DNA from: Candidatus Chlorohelix allophototropha
GTDB taxonomy: Bacteria; Chloroflexota; Chloroflexia; Chloroheliales; Chloroheliaceae
DNA length: 64,000 nt
Direction: 5' to 3'
Assembly (NCBI RefSeq): GCF_030389965.1
Contig: NZ_CP128399.1
Span: 372,001 to 436,000, forward strand
The translations under genes and the position numbers were made by a program. This document shows, piece after piece, positions 3,679 to 48,790 of the stretch. Each line of letters opens with the position of its first letter. Position 1 is the stretch's first letter. Below the pieces are notes generated by a model. That model worked only from the letters and a program-made list of their open reading frames with translations. It was not told where the DNA came from and ran no database searches.

Positions 3679-5061
3679 ATGAGCAAAGGTTTGATGCTAT
3701 ATCCTGAGCCAAAATCGGCTACCCCTGAAGGTAAGCCGCCTTTTCCATATATATTGCTTAAACACCGTGAAATCCCGGATATTTACAAGCTCGAAGTGTA
3801 TCGCGCTAATAGTGGCTATGCCGCCCTCGCCAAAACCTTAAAGGAATATAAACCTGAGCAGGTGATAGATTTGGTTAAGGTGAGCGGATTACGTGGGCGT
3901 GGTGGTGCGGGTTTCTCTACTGGTATAAAGTGGAGCTTTATCCCAAAGGACGAAAGCATTGTTAAGTATGTAGCCTGCAATTCGGATGAAAGCGAACCCG
4001 GCACGTGCAGCAACCACGAAATTATTGATGGCAATCCCCACCAACTGATAGAAGGAATCCTAATAGCTTGTTACGCAATCGGCTCAAAAATAGGCTTTAT
4101 CTATATACGAGGTGAATTTGCCAGAGGAGCGCGGGTTCTGGAAAGAGCGGTTGAAGAGGCACGCGCCGCCGGATTGATAGGTAAAAACATTCTCGGCAGC
4201 GATTTTAGCTGTGAAATAGTGGTACATCGTGGGGCAGGGGCGTATATTTGCGGCGAAGAAACCGCTTTGTTGGAGTCTCTAGAAGGCAAGCGCGGCTTTC
4301 CAAAACTGAAACCACCCTTTCCGGCTAATGTCGGCGGTGGCGTGTATGGTGCGCCTACTGTCATTAACAACTCGCTAACCCTTGCTACTGTACCGCACAT
4401 AATGCTCAATGGGGCGGAGTGGTTCACTCAGTGGGGTACAGAGAAAAGCAAAGGGATTGCCCTTTACAGCCTGAGTGGGCATGTAGAACGCCCCGGTAAC
4501 TATGAGTTGCCGATGAATACCACCTTTCGCACTCTGATAAATGAGCTTGGCGGGGGTGTATGGAAGGGGCGAAAGCTGAAATGTATTATCCCCGGCGGTT
4601 CCTCGATGCCCATCTTGCCCGCTACTGATGAAGTGCTGGATACCACGATGGATTTTGAAGGGGTAGCAGCACGCGGCTCAATGCTTGGTTCGGCTGGAAT
4701 AATAGTTTTCGATGACCAAACCTGCATCGTAGGGGCAGTGTTGCGCTTGGTAGAGTTTTACAAGGATGAATCTTGCGGTAAATGTACCCCTTGTCGTGAA
4801 GGTACGCAATGGTTGGTGCAAATTTTGCACCGACTTGAACATGGGCATGGACGACCGGAAGACCTAGATTTGTTACTCAACGTGGGCGGCAATATACAGG
4901 GAAAATCGTTTTGTTTGTTGGGCGATTCTGCGCCTGTTCCGATTACCAGCGCCATGCATCTGTTCCGAGCAGAATTTGAATACCACATAAAAGAAGGACG
5001 TTGTATGGTGGGTTCGGGAGCAAACCGCCCTCCAAAACGTGAAGTTGCAGTTGCTCAATAA
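3679..5061 (+). CDS. nuoF: NADH-quinone oxidoreductase subunit F (NADH/FMN-binding)
   Basis: 51-kDa-type subunit where NADH is oxidised; it binds FMN and one [4Fe-4S] cluster. The glycine-rich GRGGAGFSTG (about 73-82) belongs to the nucleotide/flavin site. The cluster ligands are C366, C369 and C372 in SCGKCTPCREG plus C412 in GKSFCLLGD. The 460-aa length is normal. No nuoG follows: a terminator begins 13 nt after the stop, then a gene on the other strand. Confidence 0.96.
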   Translation: MSKGLMLYPEPKSATPEGKPPFPYILLKHREIPDIYKLEVYRANSGYAALAKTLKEYKPEQVIDLVKVSGLRGRGGAGFSTGIKWSFIPKDESIVKYVACNSDESEPGTCSNHEIIDGNPHQLIEGILIACYAIGSKIGFIYIRGEFARGARVLERAVEEARAAGLIGKNILGSDFSCEIVVHRGAGAYICGEETALLESLEGKRGFPKLKPPFPANVGGGVYGAPTVINNSLTLATVPHIMLNGAEWFTQWGTEKSKGIALYSLSGHVERPGNYELPMNTTFRTLINELGGGVWKGRKLKCIIPGGSSMPILPATDEVLDTTMDFEGVAARGSMLGSAGIIVFDDQTCIVGAVLRLVEFYKDESCGKCTPCREGTQWLVQILHRLEHGHGRPEDLDLLLNVGGNIQGKSFCLLGDSAPVPITSAMHLFRAEFEYHIKEGRCMVGSGANRPPKREVAVAQ

Positions 5062-35984: not shown

Positions 35985-36006
35985 GGTGGCGAAAGCCACC
36001 TTTTTT
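35985..36006 (+). terminator. terminator after gmd
   Basis: GGTGGC (35985-35990), a GAAA tetraloop and GCCACC (35995-36000) run into T6. It overlaps the 3' end of the convergent peptidase gene by two bases. Confidence 0.9.
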
Positions 36007-37420
36007 ATTGCTTTCTACGGATTACCAGCACAACGCTCAAAGTGATTGTGATTAGAGCAGCGGTGATACCTGTGGATGCCAGAACAATTAACAAGGCGTT
36101 GTTTGTCTCTGGATTTGCAGAAATAACGCTGATGGACGAATTGGAGGTAGGGCTGCCTTTGGGAATATCCGGCAAGAATCCTACTGTGGGATTGCCGATA
36201 TTGCTGCTGGTGGGTAAAACAACAGCGGCTACGGTTGTAAGCGGAAGGGGAGAAGGTTGCGCAATGGTCGGCGTTGGCGTGGCTGCAATTGCTACTACAT
36301 CGGAAACGGGATAACCGAGTGAGAGCTTCCATTGGCGATCTAGCTCATCGGTAGTTATGCCCAATACCGAGACAAGCGCTTCATCGTAGCTAACGCCGTT
36401 TTTGAAGGCAACCAGCAATTGCCCCAGTTTAGCCTCACCATATTTTTCCACGATATATTTCACTACATTTACGCTCTCTCCATACGACTGGTAAAATAAT
36501 ACAGGGTCGTTGGGAAATCGCCCGCTGATAGTACGAAGCGGTTGTAAGGTGCGTTTATCCACTCCTCGCTGAAAAGATTCGATCAGAAAGCCCTCCACCT
36601 CATCTTGGTTATACACTGCCAATCCCTCGTCCAACCACAAGGGTATGCCGTTATAAGGGTTTGAGGTTGCCTGATATACAATCAGGTGGCTGATTTCATG
36701 CGGCACGCTGCGCCCAATTTCTTTATCATCACCGGGTGGAATGAGCAGGGAGATTGCCCCATATTTTACATAGGCTTGCCCACCAACAAATTCTTCAGAA
36801 TTGGGCGGTAGCGCAGTGTAAAGGGTACGCTGGTCAGGATAGACATGTATATTGATGGAACTGTTAGCCTTGATGCCATACTGGCTGGAAAGCTTATTCG
36901 CGGTGGCTTTGACTTTATTCAGGATAGCCTGACCAAATGCGTCACTACCTTCATACCAGCGTATGGTTATAAAGCCGCTGCTCAATTCTTTGAATGGAAA
37001 GCGTTCATCGTTGACAATGAATTCTTGTGCAGGACTATCATAGCGATCATTCGCTTGGGTGTAGAGTGTCCAATAATAGCGAATATGCACTCCGGGCGGG
37101 ATAAATTCTTTCTGGGTATCAAGAATGTAACTGGCTGAAATCAAGGATGTATCTGGATTGAGATTTTGGCTGCGACTTTTAATGGCAACCTCACCTTGCA
37201 GTTTGTAATTTAACTCTATCTTGGAAAAATGCAGTAGGCTGTTATTAGTGGCATTAAATTCGAAGCTAACATTATCGGGAAAATTGGGTGTAGCGCGGTT
37301 GAGCGTTATATTTATTTCAGTTGGGAATACTTGCGAATCGGCTTGTGCCTGAATAGGGATAAAAAATAGCAGCCCAGCCATTGCTGCTAATAAATAGATA
37401 ACAAATCGCATTGTTTTCAT
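36005..37420 (-). CDS. membrane-anchored gluzincin (peptidase MA-like) surface protein
   Basis: A 471-aa exported protein. A signal peptide (1-27, cleavage near QAQA) leads to a beta-sandwich domain (about 30-135) and a zinc peptidase domain (145-370). The latter has H241-E-I-S-H245 and the downstream glutamate E265 in LWLDEGLAVY, the gluzincin arrangement of peptidase MA families. A Pro/Thr-rich stalk (about 380-435) and one C-terminal transmembrane helix (444-467) followed by RRKQ would tether it facing outward. The catalytic residues are intact, so activity is plausible; the substrate is unknown. Confidence 0.85.
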   Translation of the reverse strand: MKTMRFVIYLLAAMAGLLFFIPIQAQADSQVFPTEINITLNRATPNFPDNVSFEFNATNNSLLHFSKIELNYKLQGEVAIKSRSQNLNPDTSLISASYILDTQKEFIPPGVHIRYYWTLYTQANDRYDSPAQEFIVNDERFPFKELSSGFITIRWYEGSDAFGQAILNKVKATANKLSSQYGIKANSSINIHVYPDQRTLYTALPPNSEEFVGGQAYVKYGAISLLIPPGDDKEIGRSVPHEISHLIVYQATSNPYNGIPLWLDEGLAVYNQDEVEGFLIESFQRGVDKRTLQPLRTISGRFPNDPVLFYQSYGESVNVVKYIVEKYGEAKLGQLLVAFKNGVSYDEALVSVLGITTDELDRQWKLSLGYPVSDVVAIAATPTPTIAQPSPLPLTTVAAVVLPTSSNIGNPTVGFLPDIPKGSPTSNSSISVISANPETNNALLIVLASTGITAALITITLSVVLVIRRKQ

Positions 37421-37445
37421 TATAGATAGTGCCGCATTACCACTA

Positions 37446-37518
37446 AGCCGACTATCGGAATCGAACCGATGACCTGCCGATTACGAATCGGCTGCTCTAC
37501 CAGCTAAGCTAAGTCGGC
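37446..37518 (-). tRNA. tRNA-Thr (anticodon CGT)
   Basis: Read on the minus strand, the acceptor stem GCCGACT pairs with AGTCGGC, the T arm is ATCGG-TTCGATT-CCGAT, and the anticodon stem GCCGA/TCGGC encloses TTCGTAA, giving anticodon CGT. The D arm has the usual GCTTAGCTGGTAGAGC. The 3' CCA is not encoded and the discriminator base is U. All stems pair perfectly. Confidence 0.96.
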
Positions 37519-37561
37519 GCGACAATTACTATATTAAAGTTTATAAGAACTGTCAATATGA

Positions 37562-38623
37562 TTATCTGGGTACTACAAAAAATGGCTCTACCGGGGCAAA
37601 GGCACACTGTTCTTCGTCACCGTTCAGGCGCAATCGAAATTGTTCTAGCGCATTGCGGGCGGAATAACTGACTTTGCTACGGATAAGACTGGCAAATTCC
37701 TGACGTGGTACTTGCGCTGACAGCAATACCGATTCATAGCCAAGAGTTCCATCGAAAAGTTCATCACTTGGTTCGCGTTGGTTCATCGCAAATTCACCGG
37801 GATCTTCTTTTTTCCGTTGCTTTTCTAGCTTCTTTTCTTCTTTTTCGCGTTTTTTCCGGTCTTTTTCAGTTTCAAAGGGGGTTGAATCTTCCCTTAGACC
37901 GAATTTGCGCAGTCCGCTAGGGCGTGTATGTGTATCTAAAGGTACAAGGTTTACACCCTCAACAGGATCATGATCCATCCGAACCAGCACTACTTCCAGC
38001 GTATCAATTCCGGGCAACATTTCGGCAGCTTTGACAAGGTACAAAGCCGCTTGTGAGCATAATTGGTCTTCGTAATCCTTGAAATTTGCCTGTAACTTTT
38101 TTTGGGTGCTATTAGTGGCGCTTATGATCGGCGGAAAAGGCGCTCTGGCTTTAATCTGAAAACGGCGAGTTTCAGGTGAATAATTCAGATAGGTAATTGG
38201 TTGGTCGCAAAGCTCATACAGCATTAAATCATACATAGCTTGTTGGTCGCGTTTTTCTACCAACTCGACTATTGCTTTTTCCTTGCGGGAAATTACTTCC
38301 TTTTGCAAGGATTCTAAAGAGCGCGGATCAAGGAAAGGCAAGCGCGCATACTGGACATATAGTTCGAGGTGTTCGCCTTCATCTGAGAAGCCCACCGACT
38401 CTATCATTCTTTTAGTATTGAAATAAGCTTTGTTGATGTAATAATATGGTAGTTCAAGGTCGCGGCTGGTGCGCGCCCCTTCCCGCATTATCAGTGCATG
38501 CTCGGTAAAATCGATAAAATATCCATCTTCTTTTACGTTAATGCTATAAAGACCACTATTCCCGGTGCGTTTCTGAGGCATGCGCCCATGTGCTACATAC
38601 CGCCGGTTCTGCTTAAAGGACAC
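37562..38623 (-). CDS. conserved hypothetical protein with charged linker
   Basis: A soluble protein of about 353 aa that I do not recognise. It appears to have two alpha/beta regions, about 20-240 and 285-353, joined by an extremely charged stretch near 250-275 (repeated K, E and R, probably a single helix or coiled coil). There is no signal peptide or membrane segment. The frame opens at a TTG (38632) with the GGAAAGG directly abutting it; the GTG at 38623 has better spacing and is used. Neighbours give no functional clue. Confidence 0.6.
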   Translation of the reverse strand: MSFKQNRRYVAHGRMPQKRTGNSGLYSINVKEDGYFIDFTEHALIMREGARTSRDLELPYYYINKAYFNTKRMIESVGFSDEGEHLELYVQYARLPFLDPRSLESLQKEVISRKEKAIVELVEKRDQQAMYDLMLYELCDQPITYLNYSPETRRFQIKARAPFPPIISATNSTQKKLQANFKDYEDQLCSQAALYLVKAAEMLPGIDTLEVVLVRMDHDPVEGVNLVPLDTHTRPSGLRKFGLREDSTPFETEKDRKKREKEEKKLEKQRKKEDPGEFAMNQREPSDELFDGTLGYESVLLSAQVPRQEFASLIRSKVSYSARNALEQFRLRLNGDEEQCAFAPVEPFFVVPR

Positions 38624-38770
38624 AGCTACCAACCTTTCCAGGCGATAATAGAAATTCTTGCTTCTCTTTTGCGCTAATTATACCACAGGCTGAACCGGGC
38701 TTGAGCTATGCTATAATCAATTAGATTTGTGCTGAAGATCACTTGACATAAATAAGGATAAATTATTAAG

Positions 38771-39103
38771 ATGTCTATAGAAATAAAAAATATTGCGGAA
38801 GCACGTCGTTGGAGTGAAGAAAAGCTTCAAAAAGTGGGAATATATGCCAGCCAACGCGGCTTTTGTGATGTATATTGTTTCGAACCGGGGCAATTTCAGA
38901 AAATGCACAATCATGAAAACGCCGATAAAATCTATATCGTGTTAGAGGGACAGGGGCGAGTCGTGGTTGACGGTACAGATTATATTTTGGGAATAAATGA
39001 TAGTGTAGCAGTTCCGCCCCCGCTACCACACGGGGTCTTTAACGATAGCGATGAGCGTCTGGTAATACTGGTTTTCCTGTCGGGTGATTACCCGCGCCAG
39101 TAG
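38771..39103 (+). CDS. cupin-domain protein
   Basis: A 110-aa single-domain cupin. Motif 1, in FEPGQFQKMHNHENADKIYIVLEG, supplies two His and a Glu/Asp-type ligand, and motif 2 lies in VAVPPPLPHGVFNDSD. The metal site therefore looks largely intact. Small cupins of this type range from isomerases to regulatory sensors and the substrate cannot be read from sequence. AAGGAT upstream of ATG supports the start. It lies alone, ahead of the PASTA kinase gene. Confidence 0.8.
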   Translation: MSIEIKNIAEARRWSEEKLQKVGIYASQRGFCDVYCFEPGQFQKMHNHENADKIYIVLEGQGRVVVDGTDYILGINDSVAVPPPLPHGVFNDSDERLVILVFLSGDYPRQ

Positions 39104-39247
39104 TTCGGAACTCAAACCCGCTTCGTTGCGTTATATACATGGTTGGGTAGTTATTTTGGAGGGTATTTTTTCTGTTCTCCCTCAAACATAGTATAATGAC
39201 GTTGTATTTAGCTAAACAAATTATCAGGCTGAAAGAGGATACACCTC

Positions 39248-41299
39248 ATGACGCAGGCTCAAAGAACCCTTAATAATCGTTATGAATTGGTAGCCAAAAT
39301 TGGTGATGGCGGCATGGCGGTTGTTTTCAAGGCGCTTGACCATAAGCTCAACCGTACAGTTGCTGTTAAAGTTTTAAGAGAAACCTTTTCCAGCGATCAA
39401 CAATTTTTATCTCGGTTCAACCGTGAAGCCCAATCTGCCGCTTCTTTGAGCCATCCTAATATCGTAAGCGTATATGACGTAGGCGAAGATGGTAATTTCC
39501 ATTACATCGTAATGGAATATATCGAGGGAGTGAGCCTTAAAGATTATATAACCAGTACCTCACCTTTGCCGGTTAATCAAGCGGTTGAATTTGCCATTAA
39601 AATCAGCAATGCAATCGGCTACGCCCATTCCAAAGGACTGATTCATCGCGATATTAAGCCTCAAAATATACTGCTGACTACTGACTTTGATATAAAAGTT
39701 ACAGATTTTGGTATTGCTAAAGGTCTCGGTGATGTTACGTTAACCCAAACGGGTTTTACTCTCGGTACGGTGCATTATTTCTCGCCGGAGCAAGCACAGG
39801 GTAAGCCTGCAATGGCTCAAAGCGATTTGTATTCAATCGGGGTTGTCTTATATGAGATGTTAACCGGGCGCATTCCATTTGAAAGCGATAGCCCGGTAGC
39901 GTTGGCTCTAAAGCATATTGAAGAACCCCCTCCTTCGCCGCGCCGCTTCAACCCTAATATTCCGGTGCCGCTTGAGCAACTTGTGCTGAAATCTCTGGCA
40001 AAGAACCCCACTGCTCGTTACCAATCGGCTACTGCTTTTACGCAGGCGCTCAAGGAATTTGCGCAAGCAAGCGAGATGGGTACAATGGCAGTGCCACGTG
40101 CTCCCGGTTCGCCAAGTAACCGACCTCCCACCGCAAGGGTAGAAGAAGATTTTGCTTCGCCAACCCCGCCCAAGCCTCCAATACGCCGTCCTTCAGACCC
40201 AGAGGCTTATTCGGCTTACGCGCAAGGTAGCGGTTATGATCCTAATCAGGAATTCCGCCGCCGTCCTACTGCCGGGCAGGGCAATTACCCACCCAATAAT
40301 TATATTGATAATCAGGCAGATTTGGCGCGCAGATATAATTCCCAATCTTCACGGTCTATATCGACCGAAGACCGATATGATGAAGAGACTTCTCCTAAGC
40401 GTGGATCAGGTTGCGTACCTTGGGTAGTGGGTGGCTTGCTAATGGTGATGTTAGCCGGATTGGTGGTATTGTTCTTTGTATTTCTCTTACCGCCCCTAAC
40501 CAAACCCTCCCCAACCGCCACGCCAGTATTGCCTACCGCTACATTGGGACCGGCAGCAAAAATAGTTATGCCGGATGTCAGAAATAAAACGCTGGATGAG
40601 GCAGAAACTGCGCTCAAGGCTGTCGGTTTACAACTCGGCACTACCAAAACCCAGTTTGATGATAAGGTTGATGGTGGAAAGATAATAAGCCAATCGATTG
40701 CGCCTAAAGCGCAGGTTGATAAGGGTGCAAAAATAGACCTTGTAATTAGTCAGGGGGTAGATGCGGTGGAACTGCCGCAGCGTTTTATTAATACGCCTTT
40801 TGACAAAACCAAAGAAGCTATTGAAAATCTTGGTTTGAAAACACAACGGGTTGACCAACCTAGCGATTCGATTGGTCCCGGTGCGGTAATCAAGACCGAC
40901 CCTGAAGGCGGTCCGGGAGTAAAAGTGCCGCGCAGCACTGTTATCAAAATCTTTGTCAGTAGCGGCCCGTTACCTACTGCCACGCCTGTACCGCCCACTG
41001 CCACACCTGTGCCACCTACACCTGTTGTTAGTCCCACTCCTAAAGTGGTGGTAACGGTTCCAAGCGGTCTGATTGGCAAGAAACAAGCCGATGCTACCAA
41101 GCAGTTGGTAGATGCTGGTTTTATAGTTGATGTCGTACAGTGGAATCTAGACGATATTAAACGCCAATTCCCCGGCGATCAGGTCGCGATTGATACTTGG
41201 AACACTCTTAAAGAAGGCGATGTGCTTGGTATAAATCCGCCTGCCGGTACTAAGCTGGACAAAGGCGCAAAAGTAACATTGGCAGTTAAAAAGCCCTAA
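39248..41299 (+). CDS. pknB: PASTA-domain serine/threonine protein kinase (PknB/Stk1 type)
   Basis: A 683-aa transmembrane kinase. The cytoplasmic kinase domain (12-270) has the glycine loop IGDGGMAVVFKA, K41, the catalytic HRD (D135), DFG (153-155) and a Thr-rich activation loop (TLTQTGFTLGT). A disordered juxtamembrane region (285-388) is followed by one membrane helix (391-416). The outside part has three PASTA domains (438-503, 506-573, 601-683), the last two separated by a Pro/Thr linker. PASTA domains bind muropeptides or lipid II, so this kinase probably couples wall state to phosphorylation. The last PASTA domain and the terminator are duplicated in the TIR gene downstream. Confidence 0.95.
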   Translation: MTQAQRTLNNRYELVAKIGDGGMAVVFKALDHKLNRTVAVKVLRETFSSDQQFLSRFNREAQSAASLSHPNIVSVYDVGEDGNFHYIVMEYIEGVSLKDYITSTSPLPVNQAVEFAIKISNAIGYAHSKGLIHRDIKPQNILLTTDFDIKVTDFGIAKGLGDVTLTQTGFTLGTVHYFSPEQAQGKPAMAQSDLYSIGVVLYEMLTGRIPFESDSPVALALKHIEEPPPSPRRFNPNIPVPLEQLVLKSLAKNPTARYQSATAFTQALKEFAQASEMGTMAVPRAPGSPSNRPPTARVEEDFASPTPPKPPIRRPSDPEAYSAYAQGSGYDPNQEFRRRPTAGQGNYPPNNYIDNQADLARRYNSQSSRSISTEDRYDEETSPKRGSGCVPWVVGGLLMVMLAGLVVLFFVFLLPPLTKPSPTATPVLPTATLGPAAKIVMPDVRNKTLDEAETALKAVGLQLGTTKTQFDDKVDGGKIISQSIAPKAQVDKGAKIDLVISQGVDAVELPQRFINTPFDKTKEAIENLGLKTQRVDQPSDSIGPGAVIKTDPEGGPGVKVPRSTVIKIFVSSGPLPTATPVPPTATPVPPTPVVSPTPKVVVTVPSGLIGKKQADATKQLVDAGFIVDVVQWNLDDIKRQFPGDQVAIDTWNTLKEGDVLGINPPAGTKLDKGAKVTLAVKKP

Positions 41300-41328
41300 C
41301 ACTTTTCTGTCGGTTGAAGCTATAGTTA

Positions 41329-41359
41329 ATACCCTCCTCGTCTAGAGGGGGGTATTTTT
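41329..41359 (+). terminator. terminator after the PASTA kinase gene
   Basis: ATACCCTCCT (41329-41338) and AGGGGGGTAT (41346-41355) form a 10-bp stem with one G-U pair and a 7-nt loop, then T5. An identical copy follows the TIR gene. Confidence 0.9.
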
Positions 41360-41360
41360 A

Positions 41361-41812
41361 TCACTATTGTGGTTAATCCAGTCAGGCAACAACACTACTT
41401 CTAACTAAACATTCCCTCTGTTGTCTCCAGACCTTACACCACTGTCAACTTCCCACCACGCGCTTAAAGTTAACAATAACAAATCCCTTGCCATAGTGTT
41501 AGGACATCTCATCTCAAGGAAATAGCTTATATTACTAGAAAAAATAATGATACTCACGTCTCATAATATCAATTGTGCTGGCTTGCCGTCAGCCTGAGTT
41601 ACGTATTAAATCGGATGTGGATGAAATAAAATTGTTTTAAAAGCAAGTGTGAGTCGAGATTTTCTTATGTAAAAAATATTGTCGGCGCTCTACAATGTAT
41701 TAAGTATAAGCTTGTCCCATCCTTGTATTCCCATTATAATACTCTAGCAGTTTAGCAAGGCTTATCCTTTGTTAAGTTATATTGTGGTATCTAAAATTGA
41801 GGGTAATCTCTA
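41361..41812. other. intergenic region before the TIR gene
   Basis: About 450 bp without a gene that I can support, AT-rich towards the right. It separates the kinase terminator from the TIR gene and presumably holds the TIR promoter. No repeat or hairpin of note was seen. Confidence 0.4.
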
Positions 41813-42745
41813 ATGCCCACACCCACCAAACTGCAAGTCTTTCTTTGCCACTCCTCTGGCGATAAAAAGATGGTGCACACGCTATACAATCGTCTCAAAG
41901 CTGAAAACTGGTTAGATATCTGGCTGGATAAAGAAAAATTATTACCGGGTCAGCGGTGGCGTGATGAAATCGAAAAGGCTGTGGAGCAGAGCCACGTAAT
42001 TCTGGTGTGCCTTTCACCCGAATCAATCAACAAAGAAGGCTTTGTCCAGTATGAGATTAAAATTGCTTTGGATCAGGCTGATTATATGCCGGAAGACCGA
42101 ATTTTTATCATCCCTCTCAAGCTAGCGGAGTGCATGATACCGCGCCGCTTGCGAGAGTGGCATTGGGTAAATTACTATGAAGTGGGTGCGTATGAGAAGT
42201 TAATTAAAGCGTTGCAAGTACGCGCCCTGCAAATGGGGGTAGAATTAGCGCAACACCCTACTACTCAATATCTTCCTGTTCAAGCTTACCGCCAGATAAG
42301 TCCCGAAAAAAAAACTTTCCTATTAAATCTGAAACCTTCTAACTGGCTGATTGGAGGGGGTGTGCTGGCAGTAGCGTTTGTGCTAGTAATGGGACTGCTA
42401 ATAGCAACAGTTTGGGCGAACTCTAACTCGAAACTAGATGCCACTGCCACGTTTGTACCACCTACCTCTACTGTTAGCCCCACACCTAAAATAGTGGTGA
42501 CGATTCCAAGCGGTCTTATCGGCAAGAAACAAGCCGATGCTACCAAGCAGTTGGTAGATGCCGGGTTTACAGTTGATGTAATGCAGTGGAATTTGGACGA
42601 TATTAAACGCCGATTCCCCGGCGATCAAGTGGCGATTGATACTTGGAACACCCTAAAAGAAGGCGATGTATTCGGTATGGATCCTCCTGCCGGTATTAAA
42701 CTGGAAAAAGGCGCAAAAGTGATACTGGCAGTTAAAAAGCCCTAA
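41813..42745 (+). CDS. TIR domain - transmembrane - PASTA domain protein
   Basis: A 310-aa protein with an unusual order of domains. Residues 6-135 are a TIR domain (VFLCHSSGDKKMV at the start, IWLDKEKLLPGQRW, VILVCLSPESINKEGFVQYEI); E81 sits where the catalytic glutamate of NAD-consuming TIR domains is expected. Residues 179-201 are one membrane helix. After a short Pro/Thr stalk, residues 226-310 form one PASTA domain nearly the same as the last PASTA domain of the kinase upstream. The TIR part should be cytoplasmic and the PASTA part outside. TIR domains make NAD-derived signals or deplete NAD in immunity; wall-triggered TIR activity is inference. GAGGG precedes the ATG. Confidence 0.88.
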   Translation: MPTPTKLQVFLCHSSGDKKMVHTLYNRLKAENWLDIWLDKEKLLPGQRWRDEIEKAVEQSHVILVCLSPESINKEGFVQYEIKIALDQADYMPEDRIFIIPLKLAECMIPRRLREWHWVNYYEVGAYEKLIKALQVRALQMGVELAQHPTTQYLPVQAYRQISPEKKTFLLNLKPSNWLIGGGVLAVAFVLVMGLLIATVWANSNSKLDATATFVPPTSTVSPTPKIVVTIPSGLIGKKQADATKQLVDAGFTVDVMQWNLDDIKRRFPGDQVAIDTWNTLKEGDVFGMDPPAGIKLEKGAKVILAVKKP

Positions 42746-42806
42746 CACTTTTCTGTCGGTTGAAGCTATAGTTAATACCCTCCTCGTCTAGAGGGGGGTA
42801 TTTTTA
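42497..42806 (+). repeat. duplicated copy of the kinase gene 3' end (source 41051-41360)
   Basis: The last 249 coding bases and the following 61 non-coding bases repeat the kinase segment 41051-41360. By eye the coding parts differ at roughly 28 positions, while the 61 bp after the stop codons (41300-41360 and 42746-42806), which include the terminator, are identical. The duplication placed a ready-made PASTA domain and terminator behind a TIR-membrane segment. Confidence 0.92.
42775..42805 (+). terminator. terminator after the TIR-PASTA gene
   Basis: Same sequence and stem as the kinase terminator: ATACCCTCCT (42775-42784) with AGGGGGGTAT (42792-42801), then T-run. It separates the TIR gene from the next small gene by 16 bp. 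Confidence 0.9.
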
Positions 42807-42821
42807 GAAGAGGTAGTAGGC

Positions 42822-43292
42822 ATGTCCCAAGAACAAGATTTGGAACGAAAACAGCACCGTAAATTTGCAGTAGCTTGCTTTAATCTTACTTGGTCGCTAA
42901 TGGAACAAAAAGAACGCAGCGAAGCCGATGACGACCGGATGTTGCATACGGCTTTTGCCTCGCGTTTTCACTGGGGTGAAATCGGCACTCCCCTAGAATT
43001 TGCCAGAGGCGAGTGGTTATTGTCGAGGGTGTACACGGTGCTATTGCAACCTGATCCGGCACTTTTGCACGCTCACAAATCTCTCGCAATTTGTCTTGAA
43101 AATGGCTATGGAGACTTTGACCTTGCCTACGCTTACGAAGCTTTAGCCCGTGCCTATGCCTTACTCGGTCACAAGGATAAATTGGGGCTTAACCTCAATC
43201 TGGCAAAAGAAGCCGGGAAAAAAATAGCCGAACAGGATGATAAGGATATATTTTATAGCGACCTCAAAACTATTCCCGGCTACGAAGAATAA
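42822..43292 (+). CDS. helical conserved hypothetical protein
   Basis: A 156-aa soluble, predominantly helical protein. The middle contains FARGEWLLSRVYTVL, HAHKSLAICLENG and YAYEALARAYALLG, spaced like tetratricopeptide-type helix pairs. I do not recognise a named family. An AGAGG sequence precedes the ATG. It starts just past the TIR-gene terminator, so it may depend on readthrough or a promoter overlapping that region. A functional link to the TIR protein is unproven. Confidence 0.7.
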   Translation: MSQEQDLERKQHRKFAVACFNLTWSLMEQKERSEADDDRMLHTAFASRFHWGEIGTPLEFARGEWLLSRVYTVLLQPDPALLHAHKSLAICLENGYGDFDLAYAYEALARAYALLGHKDKLGLNLNLAKEAGKKIAEQDDKDIFYSDLKTIPGYEE

Positions 43293-43356
43293 AAGAAATT
43301 AAAACACCCCTATGCTATCTCAATCTGCAAGGGATATTTTAAAAGTTTACTGGTTA

Positions 43357-44328
43357 TTAGCTGCCCGGTATCAGCACCAGTTTTCCGGTAGTGGCGCGTC
43401 CTTCCAAATCAATATGTGCTTGTGCTGCTTGTGATAGTGGGTAGGTATGCTCTACCCGCAGCTTTAATTTACCCGCCTGTGTCCAATTCAGTACATCTCC
43501 GGCGCGGGAAAGCAGCACAGTTCTATCGGCGATATAGTGTCCCAACGTAGGGCGAGTCAGGAAATACGAACCGCGCATCAGGATGATGGGGTCTATTGGG
43601 GGTACAGCGCCACTGGATGCACCGTATAGAACCAGATAACCAAATTGTTTGAGCGAGTTAAGGCTTTTGTCAAAGGTGGTTTTTCCCACTGCATCGTAAA
43701 CAACTTCTACCCCTACTCCTCCGGTCAACCGCTTAATTTCAGCTTCAAAATCCTGTGAATTGTAAAGGATAACTTCGTCTGCGCCTGCTTCTTTAGCCAG
43801 AACCGCCTTTTCTTCGGTCGATACGGTGGTAAATACCTGCGCTCCTAGCATTTTACACATCTGGATTAATAACAGACCGACTCCACCTGCTCCAGCATGC
43901 ACCAGCACACTATCCCCCTCTTTAACTGGATAGGTGGTGTGGCAGAGGTAGTGCGCTGTCATCCCTTGCAACATTGCTGCCGCAGCGTAGCGAAAATCCA
44001 TTCCGGTAGGAACCGGAACCAGTTTTGAAGCGGGTACAGCCGCATATTCGGCATAGCTACCGGGAACATTGGTGTAAGCTACCCGGTCACCGACTTTAAA
44101 TTCGGTAACTCCCTCTCCAACTGCTTCTACCACGCCCGCGCCTTCCTGACCGGGTATAAGGGGCAGATTATTGGGATAACGCCCGGTGCGGTGATATACA
44201 TCTATAAAGTTTATGCCGCTGGCAGCAAGCTTGATAAGCGCTTCTCCGGCTTTGGGAGTAGGATTAGGTACTGCTTTATAGTTTAAAACTTCAGGTCCCC
44301 CAAATGTTTCTATTTGAATCGCGTACAT
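43357..44328 (-). CDS. NADPH:quinone oxidoreductase, zinc-free MDR family
   Basis: A 323-aa medium-chain reductase of the QOR type. It has the family start FGGPEVLNYKAVP, the QOR segment GINFIDVYHRTGRYPNNLPLIPGQEGAGVVE, and the cofactor motif VHAGAGGVGLLLIQ (about 143-156). The zinc-binding cysteines of alcohol dehydrogenases are absent. Members reduce quinones with NADPH in one-electron or two-electron steps. It is a single gene, terminated or bounded by AT-rich DNA on both sides; ATG has AGGAGG immediately upstream. Confidence 0.9.
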   Translation of the reverse strand: MYAIQIETFGGPEVLNYKAVPNPTPKAGEALIKLAASGINFIDVYHRTGRYPNNLPLIPGQEGAGVVEAVGEGVTEFKVGDRVAYTNVPGSYAEYAAVPASKLVPVPTGMDFRYAAAAMLQGMTAHYLCHTTYPVKEGDSVLVHAGAGGVGLLLIQMCKMLGAQVFTTVSTEEKAVLAKEAGADEVILYNSQDFEAEIKRLTGGVGVEVVYDAVGKTTFDKSLNSLKQFGYLVLYGASSGAVPPIDPIILMRGSYFLTRPTLGHYIADRTVLLSRAGDVLNWTQAGKLKLRVEHTYPLSQAAQAHIDLEGRATTGKLVLIPGS

Positions 44329-44429
44329 GATTCCTCCTTTGAGGCTTTATTGTAGGTAGATTTGAGCAATATATCTAAAAAAAGCTACGCTGGAATTATA
44401 CTATCACGCTGAGCTATATGCAGCTCACA

Positions 44430-44467
44430 AAATAATAAATCCCCTGTGCGTGACTATTCACAGGGGA
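44430..44467 (-). terminator. terminator after the lipid operon
   Basis: TCCCCTGTG (44440-44448) and CACAGGGGA (44459-44467) form a perfect 9-bp stem with a 10-nt loop, followed on the minus strand by a T-rich tract. It ends the four-gene operon 47730-44508. Confidence 0.85.
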
Positions 44468-44507
44468 TGAGTGATGTGGAATGGACGTGATTAACGTCAG
44501 ATATTGT

Positions 44508-45386
44508 TCATTTGCGCCCGGTTGTTACCGAAAACAGACCGACTTCCTCAATTCTGCTTTCGACCTGTTTGAATCCGGCTTCTCGCCCCCATAAATCCAT
44601 CGCTTCAACCGAGCGGCAGCGCATTACCCAGGGTATCCCATCCCGGTTTGGTAATACGTTGGCGATAAATTCAAGTTGCGGGTGGCGATTCTGAGCGGTG
44701 TAAAAGATTGCCCCGCCAGGAGTGAGAAATTTGTGCAAGGTTTTGAGCGATGTGCGAATGATTTCATCCTCAAGCATCAATTCGTACAGTCCTGAAACTA
44801 CGATTACATTAGGCGCAGACCCAAGCGTGGCATTTGTAGGCGCAGGATTGAAAGCATCGCCCTGTTCATAATGGATGTGCTTAATCCCGGCTTCCTGTGC
44901 CTGTTGTAAGCCCTGCACAACCCCTGCCAGCGAGAGGTCGCGGCATAACACTTCGACATCGCCCTTCTCTTCGCCGATTTCCTGCAATAATTCCTGAAGG
45001 TAGCGACCGGGTCCGGCTGCAACATCGAGAATACGAGTTTTGATTCCATCAGCGCGGTTTTTTTCAATTTCAGATTTCAGCATTTGTTTCAGCAATACAC
45101 GCCGCGCCCGGATACCTCTCCAGCCGATTGAATTCAGGTAGAAGCGATCTACCAGTTTGCCAACCAGTAATGTTCCGTGAGCTTTATTTACATACACATA
45201 GTCAAGCATATTGCCGCTATCGAAGCCGAAACGGTATCCGGTGCGAACGCCTTTGCTGGTACGTCCGAAGGTTGCGAATCCGGCTTTCACCACAGCCCAT
45301 TTAATTTTCCCAAAAACCCCCGGTTTCCGCACTTCAATTTCATGCGCTTTTGGTTGGTTAACTGCATTATTATTCAGGGTTGTCAT
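44508..45386 (-). CDS. class I SAM-dependent methyltransferase, YnbC C-terminal type
   Basis: A 292-aa methyltransferase. It opens with a conserved leader including FGFDSGNMLDYVYVNKAHG and YLNSIGWRGIRARRVLL before the SAM motif ILDVAAGPGRYLQEL (about 119-133), the acidic strand CRDLS and a LTPGGAIFYTAQNRHPQ motif. This leader-plus-SAM layout resembles the methyltransferase half of E. coli YnbC, here without its hydrolase half. It is the last gene of a lipid-synthesis-type operon, 31 nt after the cytidylyltransferase, so its substrate may be a phospholipid head group or related lipid; that is inference. Confidence 0.75.
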   Translation of the reverse strand: MTTLNNNAVNQPKAHEIEVRKPGVFGKIKWAVVKAGFATFGRTSKGVRTGYRFGFDSGNMLDYVYVNKAHGTLLVGKLVDRFYLNSIGWRGIRARRVLLKQMLKSEIEKNRADGIKTRILDVAAGPGRYLQELLQEIGEEKGDVEVLCRDLSLAGVVQGLQQAQEAGIKHIHYEQGDAFNPAPTNATLGSAPNVIVVSGLYELMLEDEIIRTSLKTLHKFLTPGGAIFYTAQNRHPQLEFIANVLPNRDGIPWVMRCRSVEAMDLWGREAGFKQVESRIEEVGLFSVTTGRK

Positions 45387-45417
45387 TTTGGTGCCTCTTT
45401 CTTTTGAAATTTATTGA

Positions 45418-46398
45418 TTAAAGACCTATGATTGTTTCTAACCTTGATAAGTAGAAAACCAGTGGCGCTACAAATAACAAACTGTCTATCCGATCGAGCA
45501 ACCCCCCGAAGCCGGGAAGGAAATTGCCCGCATCTTTTACTCCACTTTGCCGCTTTAGCAATGATTCAAACAGGTCGCCGCATACACTACCGACTGCAAT
45601 TCCTAACGCAAGCAGGAAGAGTAACCACCAAGCCATTTCGGTGAGGGCGAAAGAGAATAGCGCGATTGCAATTCCTGCGCCCATTAAGTTACCGACTACT
45701 CCGCCCCACGTTTTGTTAGGGCTGAGCTTGGGAGAAAGTTTTGGGCCTCTCAGCGATTTGCCGCCGCAGAATGCGCCTATATCGCTCAACGCTACGCCAA
45801 GCCCTATTGCGAGGGTTAAGCCGGGTCTTTGTCCGGTTTCGAGCGCTACCAGATGCGCTGGTAACCATCCGGCGTACAGATAAGCCGAGAACCCGCTTGA
45901 GGCTGCCATAAAACGCTCTTTAAGCTCACGCTCATCCTTAAGGGGCAGCAATGCTACAAATGCCCAGAAGAAGAAAGCGATGGCGGGCGCAATGGCTATT
46001 TCAGCAGAACCACAGACCAGCACCAGCGCCAGCGTCAACCAACCACATACCACCGCGAGATATTGGTGCATTTTCGGCAGGTTAAACAACTTTGCATATT
46101 CGGCGATTCCCTGCCAGATAATGAAAGCTACCATCGCGGCGGTGGTTAGTGCGCCAAATAGAACTGCACCACCATAAACGAAGGCGATGATGAGCCAAGT
46201 GCGATAACGCTGCCACAATACTTGTCGGGGAGTGTGTCCGATAGCCATTGTTCCACTGCCGGCTACTTCAAGCTGTTTTTGCCGCAAGCTTACCAGCGCC
46301 AGCGCCACTCCACCTAGACTAAACAGGAGAGTCAGAACCGTTATAACCGGGATTGTAACCGGGTTATCGAGCGGGTTTGTCACAATTTCCGCTTTCAT
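45418..46398 (-). CDS. phosphatidate cytidylyltransferase (CDP-diglyceride synthase), YnbB-like
   Basis: A 326-aa membrane enzyme expected to make CDP-diacylglycerol from phosphatidate and CTP. It has about eight hydrophobic helices and the C-terminal CdsA signature: SDIGAFCGGKSLRGPKLSPKLSPNKTWGG, then GSVCGDLFESLLKRQSGVKDAGNFLPGFGGLLDRIDS. The start is ATG 46398, overlapping the phosphatidyltransferase stop by 4 nt (ATGA), with AAGGA upstream; an upstream start at 46440 is less likely. An accessory copy is likely, since a housekeeping cdsA normally sits near tRNA or isoprenoid genes. Confidence 0.9.
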   Translation of the reverse strand: MKAEIVTNPLDNPVTIPVITVLTLLFSLGGVALALVSLRQKQLEVAGSGTMAIGHTPRQVLWQRYRTWLIIAFVYGGAVLFGALTTAAMVAFIIWQGIAEYAKLFNLPKMHQYLAVVCGWLTLALVLVCGSAEIAIAPAIAFFFWAFVALLPLKDERELKERFMAASSGFSAYLYAGWLPAHLVALETGQRPGLTLAIGLGVALSDIGAFCGGKSLRGPKLSPKLSPNKTWGGVVGNLMGAGIAIALFSFALTEMAWWLLFLLALGIAVGSVCGDLFESLLKRQSGVKDAGNFLPGFGGLLDRIDSLLFVAPLVFYLSRLETIIGL

Positions 46399-47027
46399 TT
46401 CTGTCCATCCTTTGCCGGGTTCAAATCCCGGTAGCTCCAACGAAATCGCTGTACGATAGTGATCAGTATTCCGATACCAAAGACCACCAGCAGCCAGTTC
46501 CAGACAATCGCTCCAAAGAAGGCGACAAAGGGCGAGAATAGCGCCAGATAAACCATGCGGTCGGCTTTAGCCAGTAACCCGCCAAACTGCCGTTTTCCTC
46601 CGGCAGCTTTCGCAGCCGTGCCGAGGTAGCTGTTCAACAGCACCAGTACCAGCACTCCCCATCCCAGTGGGACGATTACCTGCGGATTCAAAGCCAGCCC
46701 AACCAATACCAGCAAGTCGGCAACTCGGTCACTGAATTCGTTGTAAAGCTCACCCCATGGGCGAGCTTTGCCGGTGCGCCGCGCTACCAATCCATCTAGG
46801 GCGTTCGCCGCAATCCGGGCAATGACCAGCGGGGCTACTACCAACGCCAGCCACGACCAGTGAGCCGAAAAATAAAGGGCTATTCCCGCCAACCCTGCAA
46901 ATACCACACCACTCAGGGTTACATAGTCCGGGTGAACCTGTCGCTTGACCAACGCATCTTCTATGCCTTTCAAACGCCTTTGCCACCACGGTTTTATGGA
47001 ATAAATGCCGCCAAATTGCTTTAACAT
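46395..47027 (-). CDS. CDP-alcohol phosphatidyltransferase, YnbA-like
   Basis: A 210-aa membrane enzyme that joins an alcohol to a CDP-activated lipid. The catalytic motif is D-G-x2-A-R-x8-G-x3-N-x3-D, in ALDGLVARRTGKARPWG and ELYNEFSDRVAD: the usual second aspartate is asparagine and an additional aspartate follows four residues later. Several hydrophobic helices fill the rest. It starts 16 nt after plsC and overlaps the cytidylyltransferase by 4 nt. The alcohol substrate is not readable from the sequence. The variant motif may mark a YnbA-type subfamily. Confidence 0.85.
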   Translation of the reverse strand: MLKQFGGIYSIKPWWQRRLKGIEDALVKRQVHPDYVTLSGVVFAGLAGIALYFSAHWSWLALVVAPLVIARIAANALDGLVARRTGKARPWGELYNEFSDRVADLLVLVGLALNPQVIVPLGWGVLVLVLLNSYLGTAAKAAGGKRQFGGLLAKADRMVYLALFSPFVAFFGAIVWNWLLVVFGIGILITIVQRFRWSYRDLNPAKDGQK

Positions 47028-47043
47028 TTATATACCTAGCCTT

Positions 47044-47730
47044 TTAAGCTGCTCGATTATGAGTGTCAATTGTTTCTGCGCCCGCCATCCGGCGCAATTG
47101 TTGCTCCATTGTGGTGTTGATTTCTGTTGTGCTGGCAGTCTCGGAAAAGCGCATCGGCTCGCCAAAAGTTACCGTGATGTGCTGGGGGCGAGGAAAGCGC
47201 GCGCCCTTTGGCATTGCTTCAAACGTGCCTTCAAGATGTATCGGTACTACCGCCACGCCGCTGTGTTTCACCAAATGAGCGGCACCCTTTTTGAATTCGT
47301 GCAATTGCCCGTCAACGCTTCGCGTGCCTTCTGGGAAAATCAAAATGTTTTTGCCGTCTTTCAACAGGTGTTGAGTTTTCATCAGGCTGGTAAAGCAGCC
47401 ATCGCCTTTTCGAGAAAATGAGATGCAATTGAACAAGGTGCTGACCAACGTGCCTTTCCAACCCCTGCTATAGAAGTAATCGCTGGCAGCGGCGACTTTG
47501 GTTTGTACCTTTTGCTTGTTCGGCAAAGCCTTCAAGATTGACAGTGTATCTAAATGGCTGGAGTGATTAGCGATGAATACTACCGGGCTATCCAAATTGG
47601 TCAGGTTTTCTTCCCCGCATACCTTCACTGGAACGATTACTCGCATCGCCGGGTAGAAGGTAACTTTTCGGATTGCTTCCCCGATGTGGGGCTGCATCAT
47701 CTCAAAAGCTTGTATCATTATGGTTTTCAT
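47044..47730 (-). CDS. plsC: 1-acyl-sn-glycerol-3-phosphate acyltransferase (PlsC type)
   Basis: A 228-aa membrane-associated acyltransferase. Block I is NHSSHLD (H-x4-D, about 55-61) and block III is FPEGTRS, near 135; VPIHLEG follows as block IV. The family acylates lysophosphatidate to phosphatidate, the substrate of the next-but-one gene's cytidylyltransferase, so the operon order matches the pathway. AGAGGT upstream of the ATG supports the start. It is the first gene of the operon running to 44508. Confidence 0.9.
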   Translation of the reverse strand: MKTIMIQAFEMMQPHIGEAIRKVTFYPAMRVIVPVKVCGEENLTNLDSPVVFIANHSSHLDTLSILKALPNKQKVQTKVAAASDYFYSRGWKGTLVSTLFNCISFSRKGDGCFTSLMKTQHLLKDGKNILIFPEGTRSVDGQLHEFKKGAAHLVKHSGVAVVPIHLEGTFEAMPKGARFPRPQHITVTFGEPMRFSETASTTEINTTMEQQLRRMAGAETIDTHNRAA

Positions 47731-47964
47731 CGCTGTACCTCTTTATTTTTGTTGCTTGTCGTTTGTTCTCTTTCCACTACCACCATACCGCTAATAGACC
47801 TGTCATTTACAGGTCTTGAACTGCTTGAAACTGGAAAATTACTGCCATTTACTGCCAACTTGAGCTCAAAGCCGTAAAAACGACTTTTTAATTGTAGAAA
47901 AACAGGAATGAAATGGGGGAGTGGTCACAAAAAGAAAGAGGGCTGCTGATGAAAAAGCAGAAAT

Positions 47965-47992
47965 AAAAAAGAGCCGGGAAGTTAACCCGGCT
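47965..47992 (-). terminator. terminator after the azlCD-aminotransferase-phzF operon
   Basis: AGCCGGG (47972-47978) and CCCGGCT (47986-47992) form a 7-bp stem, with A6 on the plus strand giving the T-run for minus-strand transcription. Confidence 0.85.
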
Positions 47993-48001
47993 TTGCATAT
48001 G

Positions 48002-48790
48002 TTAACAATCCAGTTCGCCGCGCAAAACGGTGATTGCCTTGCCCAGTAGTCTGGTTCTATCGCCGTCCACTATGGCTTGCACCACTCCACCCCGTGCGGA
48101 AGCCTGATAAGCAATAAATTCACTTTTGCTGAGCTTTGCTTGCCAGTATGGGGCAAGGCAGCAATGCGCCGACCCTGTGACTGGGTCTTCATTTACGCCG
48201 GAAGCGGGTGCAAAGAAGCGCGATACAAAATCATAGTTTTTAGAGGCACGCGCCGTTACTATAACTCCGCGTGTTTCGATACGAGCAAGCGCCGGCATAT
48301 CGGGTTTGAGCAACCTAACTGCTTCTTCAGACTCAAGCTCAACAATATAATCCATACGATTTTGCCCTATGAAAAGAGGTGTAGCGCCGAGAATCGTGGC
48401 GAAATCAGGCGGACTTACAACCGGAACGGCAGGTTCAAGCGGAAAATTAAGCTCAATCCATTCACCTTTAAGGTTGGCAGTGAGCAAGCCGCTAAGGGTA
48501 TAGAATCTAGCTTGCTCTTGCGGTTTGAGGTAGCCTTCTTGCCAAAGCACATGCGCACTGGCAAGGGTGGCATGTCCGCACAATTCCACCTCAAGCGCAG
48601 GAGTAAACCAACGCAGACGATAACCGTCACTTTCTGGGAGTAGGAAAGCCGTTTCGGACAGGTTCATTTCGCGTGCTACATTTTGCATCCACTCGTTATC
48701 TCGCGGTGCAACTAATACACACACGGCGGCGGGATTGCCGGAGAAGGACTTATCGGTAAAAGCATCTACCTGTACAATGCGTTGTGCCAT
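48002..48790 (-). CDS. PhzF-family isomerase
   Basis: A 262-aa two-domain protein of the PhzF/diaminopimelate-epimerase fold. The N-terminal VQVDAFTDKSFSGNPAAVCVL and the catalytic-type glutamate in MNLSETAFL (about E46) are present, as are LCGHATLASAHVL and EDPVTGSAHCCLAPYW, the second half of the active site. PhzF itself isomerises a phenazine precursor, but most homologues have other, unknown roles; no phenazine genes are here. It is the last gene of an operon with azlC, azlD and an aminotransferase. Confidence 0.88.
   Translation of the reverse strand: MAQRIVQVDAFTDKSFSGNPAAVCVLVAPRDNEWMQNVAREMNLSETAFLLPESDGYRLRWFTPALEVELCGHATLASAHVLWQEGYLKPQEQARFYTLSGLLTANLKGEWIELNFPLEPAVPVVSPPDFATILGATPLFIGQNRMDYIVELESEEAVRLLKPDMPALARIETRGVIVTARASKNYDFVSRFFAPASGVNEDPVTGSAHCCLAPYWQAKLSKSEFIAYQASARGGVVQAIVDGDRTRLLGKAITVLRGELDC

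Follow-up and report, generated by a model that had tools for sequence, protein, structure and literature searches.

A TIR-transmembrane-PASTA protein encoded beside a PASTA kinase

In the genome of the filamentous green bacterium Ca. Chlorohelix allophototropha, a forward-strand gene at 41813-42745 of the window (the whole stretch of 64,000 nucleotides that was analyzed) encodes a 310-aa protein joining a TIR domain, one membrane helix and one PASTA domain, and DNA comparison identifies this PASTA as a duplicate of the third PASTA domain of the adjoining Ser/Thr kinase, terminator included. The protein is best read as a modular TIR sensor-effector built on the plan of the PASTA kinases, in which the kinase domain has been swapped for a TIR domain.

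The open reading frame starts with an ATG with GAGGG just before it, and the domain structure was assigned by Pfam and an AlphaFold model. The TIR_2 domain (PF13676; residues 9-123, 41837-42181, forward strand) scored 84.1 bits against a cut-off of 28 (E 1.4e-23), and the PASTA domain (PF03793; residues 235-307) scored 28.2 bits against a cut-off of 23.2 (E 1.8e-6). A single membrane helix was located at residues about 181-203 (42353-42421, forward strand) by hydropathy, which reaches its maximum of 2.71 at residue 181, and by AlphaFold, in which the helix spans residues 184-203. Since four lysine or arginine residues precede the helix within 20 residues and only one follows it within the same distance, the protein is predicted to adopt an N-in/C-out topology like the kinase, with the TIR domain inside and the PASTA domain outside. 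The PASTA part was modelled with a mean pLDDT of 55 from an alignment of two sequences only, and its assignment rests on the Pfam match and on 88% identity with the kinase domain.

The neighboring gene (39248-41299, forward strand) encodes a PknB/StkP-type Ser/Thr kinase with three PASTA domains, which matches the NCBIfam model PknB_PASTA_kin (NF033483) with 541.8 bits (cut-off 450) and has intact HRD and DFG motifs. Matches of this kinase to PD-T4-6 in PADLOC were generic kinase matches, and this identity was rejected. The TIR-PASTA protein is itself no PASTA kinase, as it scores 18.3 bits against the cut-off of 450 and has no kinase domain. The three-part architecture and the adjoining PASTA kinase, originally predicted from the letters alone, were thus confirmed, the TIR and PASTA domains and the kinase by Pfam and the membrane helix by hydropathy and AlphaFold.

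The PASTA domain and terminator are copied from the kinase gene

The region 42441-42806 is a direct, ungapped copy of 40995-41360 on the same strand, with 325 of 366 bases equal (89%). Included in the repeat are the last part of the Thr/Pro stalk, the third PASTA domain and the stop codon of the kinase gene, which is the donor, together with its 3' UTR and terminator. In the TIR gene, the copied Thr/Pro stalk and long PASTA domain occupy 42441-42745 (88% protein and 89% DNA identity), followed by a 3' UTR and intrinsic terminator at 42746-42806 identical to those of the kinase. An independent origin of the PASTA domain was ruled out, because all four PASTA matches in the genome sit in these two genes and the DNA identity extends through the terminator. 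An artefact was likewise dismissed, since 41 positions distinguish the copies and a closed genome is reported for strain L227-S17 (PMC10972752). Neither the terminator nor the intergenic stretch between the two genes has further full copies in the genome, excluding a repeat or mobile element as their source.

The third PASTA domain of the kinase (about 41030-41296) is a long variant, extended by an insertion that contains W(N/D), and was also seen in relatives in L031-L034. This variant is found in kinases of the same Chloroflexota family and hardly elsewhere in the phylum.

The two PASTA copies are separated by 24 synonymous substitutions over 73 sites and 17 nonsynonymous substitutions over 227 sites (dS 0.43, dN 0.08, ratio 0.18). 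All differences lie upstream of the final 81 bp of the repeat, which are identical and include the entire non-coding part (p 0.00065 by permutation). As non-coding DNA is expected to diverge no less than synonymous sites do and yet is identical here, the comparison points to a recent joining or homogenization of the repeat ends by recombination, unless the 3' UTR is unusually constrained. Such recombination weakens any argument from dN/dS, since the coding differences may predate the fusion and have arisen between kinase alleles; the ratio therefore cannot separate selection on the TIR-PASTA gene from pre-fusion divergence. When used to polarize the substitutions, outgroup relatives split between both copies.

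The TIR domain retains the catalytic glutamate and aspartate

The AlphaFold model of the TIR part, based on 41 sequences, has block pLDDT values mostly of about 86-95. Using VIA-align, it was superimposed on the SPARTA TIR-APAZ (Z 17.0, 2.2 Å, 136 residues), on AbTir bound to 3AD (7uxu; Z 14.5, 2.4 Å, 128 residues) and on SARM1 (Z 14.4), with Z values of 13-17 over the solved TIR structures. The structure model thus contains both a TIR fold and the membrane helix.

In the paralog profile, E81 aligns with the C-helix glutamate of AbTir (7uwg; E208) and of other bacterial NADase TIRs, and it is kept in 40/40 TIR rows of the family alignment, in agreement with its earlier designation as the catalytic glutamate. 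D39, which corresponds to AbTir D167, is kept in every TIR row. The position of AbTir W204, the tryptophan of the WxxxE motif, is occupied by F77, and this column holds tyrosine in 29 rows and phenylalanine in 10. The NADase activity of AbTir requires E208, D167 and W204 and is blocked by W204A, whereas TcpC requires the matching glutamate and aspartate but not the matching tryptophan (PMC11374754). Because E81 and D39 are conserved and the tryptophan is dispensable in TcpC, NADase activity of the TIR-PASTA protein is plausible. TIR NADases depend on self-association (PMC12847820).

The TIR-TM part belongs to a paralog family with exchangeable C-terminal parts

The TIR-TM part is derived from a group of about 13 paralogs whose C-terminal parts are exchangeable. 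Contig 2 carries eleven close relatives and contig 3 a single one, and the genome also holds weaker TIRs. The closest of them, L002, shares 61% identity over residues 1-202, a region that includes the membrane helix, and carries WD40 repeats in its C-terminal part. The DNA similarity between the two genes begins about 25 bases upstream of the ATG, and their TIR parts are under strong constraint (dN 0.17, dS about 2). Read by eye, the C-terminal parts of the other paralogs comprise a propeller-like domain in L005, TPR in L004, a domain without a family name in L006 and an FGE-sulfatase-like domain in L003, L007, L008 and L010-L013. In other genomes, Pfam identified FGE-sulfatase, TPR, KAP NTPase and GUN4 domains as partners of TIR relatives. 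A membrane helix is also present in L002, L005, L006 and L014 and a Thr-rich stalk in L005, L006 and L014, while many TIR relatives are devoid of any membrane helix.

As the C-termini of the sister TIR-TM proteins vary and TIR-FGS proteins carry a hypervariable region of the type made by diversity-generating retroelements (DGRs), the C-terminal parts of the family look like recognition modules. DGR-diversified sensors have been described in TIR conflict proteins (PMC10907252).

The 55-kb plasmid carries a DGR template repeat with AAC runs, which follows a TIR-NACHT-like gene (L173, about 4810-5000; G000:C5:38800-38990). The 13 variable regions (L158-L165, L168-L172) are distributed over chromosomes 1 and 2, the 375-kb chromid and the plasmid, and several of them lie in TIR-FGS genes. 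At template A positions 60% of the cells differ (243/403), as compared to 10-13% at other bases. No DGR-type reverse transcriptase was seen in a search of the whole genome (G000) for the RVT_1 family; the matches were four reverse transcriptases of group II intron appearance, three of them alike with 623-aa frames and one on the 241-kb plasmid, and none lay near the template repeat. The DGR may lack its own reverse transcriptase or use a divergent one.

That the TIR-PASTA gene arose by fusion is established by these comparisons, except for the exact path. A gene for a TIR-TM-stalk paralog became placed on the downstream side of the kinase gene, and recombination with the 3' end of the latter, probably within Thr/Pro-stalk DNA, added the last PASTA domain and the terminator. 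Given the Thr-rich stalks of sister TIR-TM proteins, stalk DNA would be a natural site of exchange. The two genes are separated by an AT-rich intergenic stretch (41361-41812, forward strand) that is unique on comparison with the whole genome. It contains a promoter-like TTGTCC-17-TATAAT at 41712-41740, although such sites are not clearly more frequent in the region than chance would give.

At the locus of the TIR-WD40 gene L002 (L181, 3-4795), tandem WD40 genes adjoin it, and their C-terminal parts are about 70% identical to that of L002. Capture of the 3' end of a neighbor may have happened more than once in the TIR family, the case being weaker for L002 because WD40 repeats are self-similar. 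In another genome of the same family (G002), two proteins (L029, L030) combine a TIR-like domain with a Ser/Thr kinase, followed by TPR-like repeats in L029 and by the start of an FGE-sulfatase-like domain in L030; the two genes extend beyond the end of their locus.

Distribution and genomic context

No second TIR-PASTA protein was revealed by the searches described below. In four genomes of the same family the kinase was present (44-48% identical) and the TIR-PASTA protein absent, and the gene downstream of TIR-PASTA, where found, was located on other contigs. The combination of TIR and PASTA occurred in 0 of 400 Chloroflexota genomes (73 with matches to the protein; no more than five candidates were scored in each genome). 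A TIR-profile scan of GTDB contigs yielded 79 loci, mostly from Anaerolineales, in none of which a PASTA domain was detected with a home-made PASTA profile that was run on TIR loci L039-L145. Searches with the PASTA half gave no other TIR protein; they yielded only a PASTA-bearing protein classed by eye as VanW-type and a fortuitous hit to an ABC-type ATPase. Nothing was found in viral contigs, and the plasmids searched contained TIR parts only. As far as sampled, the TIR-PASTA protein is private to Ca. Chlorohelix allophototropha.

The architecture is also unreported in the open literature that we searched, which bears out the earlier impression that no system with this domain order had been described. 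Among these open papers a single one contained both terms, and it treats the two domains as distinct effector modules within iSTAND ternary systems (PMC7159879).

The genes flanking the TIR-PASTA gene (36005-48790) encode a peptidase, a cupin protein, a dehydrogenase, a methyltransferase and lipid enzymes. No defence genes, and hence no defence island, were found among the adjacent genes, no ThsA-type SIR2/SLOG or macro effector among the flanking genes, and no MoxR ATPase, vWA or STAND gene adjoining it. The ThsB_TIR profile matched the TIR-PASTA protein with 20.9 bits, just under the cut-off of 21.2, and the PADLOC ThsB models were weak. Thoeris was ruled out by this score and by the lack of an adjacent ThsA-type effector, and an iSTAND/VMAP ternary conflict system by the lack of an adjacent MoxR or vWA. 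Downstream, 42822-43292 encodes a 156-aa protein with no Pfam or NCBIfam match, which shows 44-52% identity in four relatives, three of them from the same family.

Possible function of the TIR-PASTA protein

The TIR domain is a module often used for bacterial immune self-destruction. We assign a probability of about 0.42 to a function in which this single-pass membrane protein responds to wall damage. The outer PASTA domain would meet a wall ligand or a protein partner of the kinase's distal PASTA, and this binding would gather or reorient the proteins. The assembled TIR domains would then cleave NAD+ or convert it into a signal, resulting in growth arrest or death when a phage, competitor or drug damages the wall. 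One PASTA alone may bind its ligand weakly, which counts against this function, as do the single genome, the housekeeping surroundings, the low-confidence PASTA model and a dN/dS that possibly reflects pre-fusion divergence. In other bacteria, muropeptides or lipid II are bound by PASTA ectodomains (PMC6428115, PMC5786024). The original prediction of a surface receptor is indirectly supported by the copying of the PASTA domain from the kinase's sensor, the predicted topology and sister C-termini that are exchangeable and partly hypervariable; its proposed role in defence or self-kill is not favored by the position of the gene outside any defence island, judged by the adjacent genes.

We regard it as unlikely, though less so than the other alternatives, that the PASTA domain merely localizes the protein at wall-synthesis sites or beside the kinase, with the TIR domain being triggered by something cytoplasmic. 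PASTA modules can have targeting roles, and the copied domain is the distal PASTA of the kinase, for which PASTA-PASTA contact or shared wall material is proposed; moreover, the trigger need not be external, given the many TIR relatives that lack a membrane helix. However, among the nearest relatives the helix is retained and the outer domain varies, a pattern that would suit a new ligand just as well as a new location.

It seems rather improbable that the gene is a young, nearly neutral fusion which took its C-terminus and terminator from the neighbor, leaving the PASTA domain without a role of its own. The restriction to one genome and the recent recombination indicated by the identical last 81 bp agree with such an origin, and the C-terminal domain shared by L002 and the adjacent WD40 genes suggests that capture may be a by-product of gene movement. 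Against this, the reading frame is intact, synonymous differences exceed nonsynonymous ones despite the far smaller number of sites, and the TIR part is strongly constrained relative to L002.

There is only a small chance that the PASTA domain acts as an integrated decoy, so that a phage protein, competitor toxin or drug effect striking the kinase's sensor or its wall ligand would also trip a TIR death switch, by analogy to plant TIR-NLRs that carry copies of attacked host proteins. Least probable is a non-enzymatic TIR scaffold that connects a TIR partner with the wall or the kinase. The nearly family-wide tyrosine or phenylalanine at the position of AbTir W204 would speak for it, but E81 and D39, kept in all TIR rows, and the dispensable tryptophan of TcpC argue against it.

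Relation to known systems

A TIR domain combined with exchangeable sensor or effector modules is also found in the modular conflict proteins with TIR domains that multicellular bacteria possess (Kaur et al. 2020, PMC7159879; PMC10907252). A filamentous host is a further common feature, and in iSTAND ternary systems PASTA is noted as a module that follows a TM segment and associates with the wall. However, their PASTA sits on the vWA components of MoxR-vWA systems, whereas here TIR and PASTA are united in one short protein with no adjacent MoxR, vWA or STAND gene. With PASTA kinases (PknB, StkP, PrkC; NF033483) the protein shares a cytoplasmic signaling domain, one membrane helix and extracytoplasmic PASTA, but it has a TIR in place of the kinase domain and one PASTA instead of three. 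TIR NADases (AbTir, SPARTA TIR-APAZ, SpbK, ThsB) have in common with it the TIR fold, the catalytic glutamate and the WxD aspartate. It differs from them in being membrane-bound with an outer domain, in having phenylalanine for the WxxxE tryptophan, in an activity that is only predicted and in adjoining no Argonaute, ThsA or STING partner. Animal Toll-like receptors likewise possess an outer recognition domain, one membrane helix and an inner TIR; this is a resemblance in plan only, as the TIR here is N-terminal (reverse polarity) and likely enzymatic and the ectodomain is unrelated.

Taken together, one genome shows how an immune-type TIR module can gain a sensor through recombination with an adjoining gene at a low-complexity stalk. 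Even if the PASTA domain is no wall sensor, the gene provides a clear example of domain capture for which donor, acceptor family and junction are known. Our results suggest, but do not prove, that TIR signaling is coupled to the state of the cell wall in Ca. Chlorohelix allophototropha; if the PASTA domain senses the wall, the protein would directly connect the integrity of the wall with TIR signaling in a bacterium, on a reversed Toll-receptor plan.
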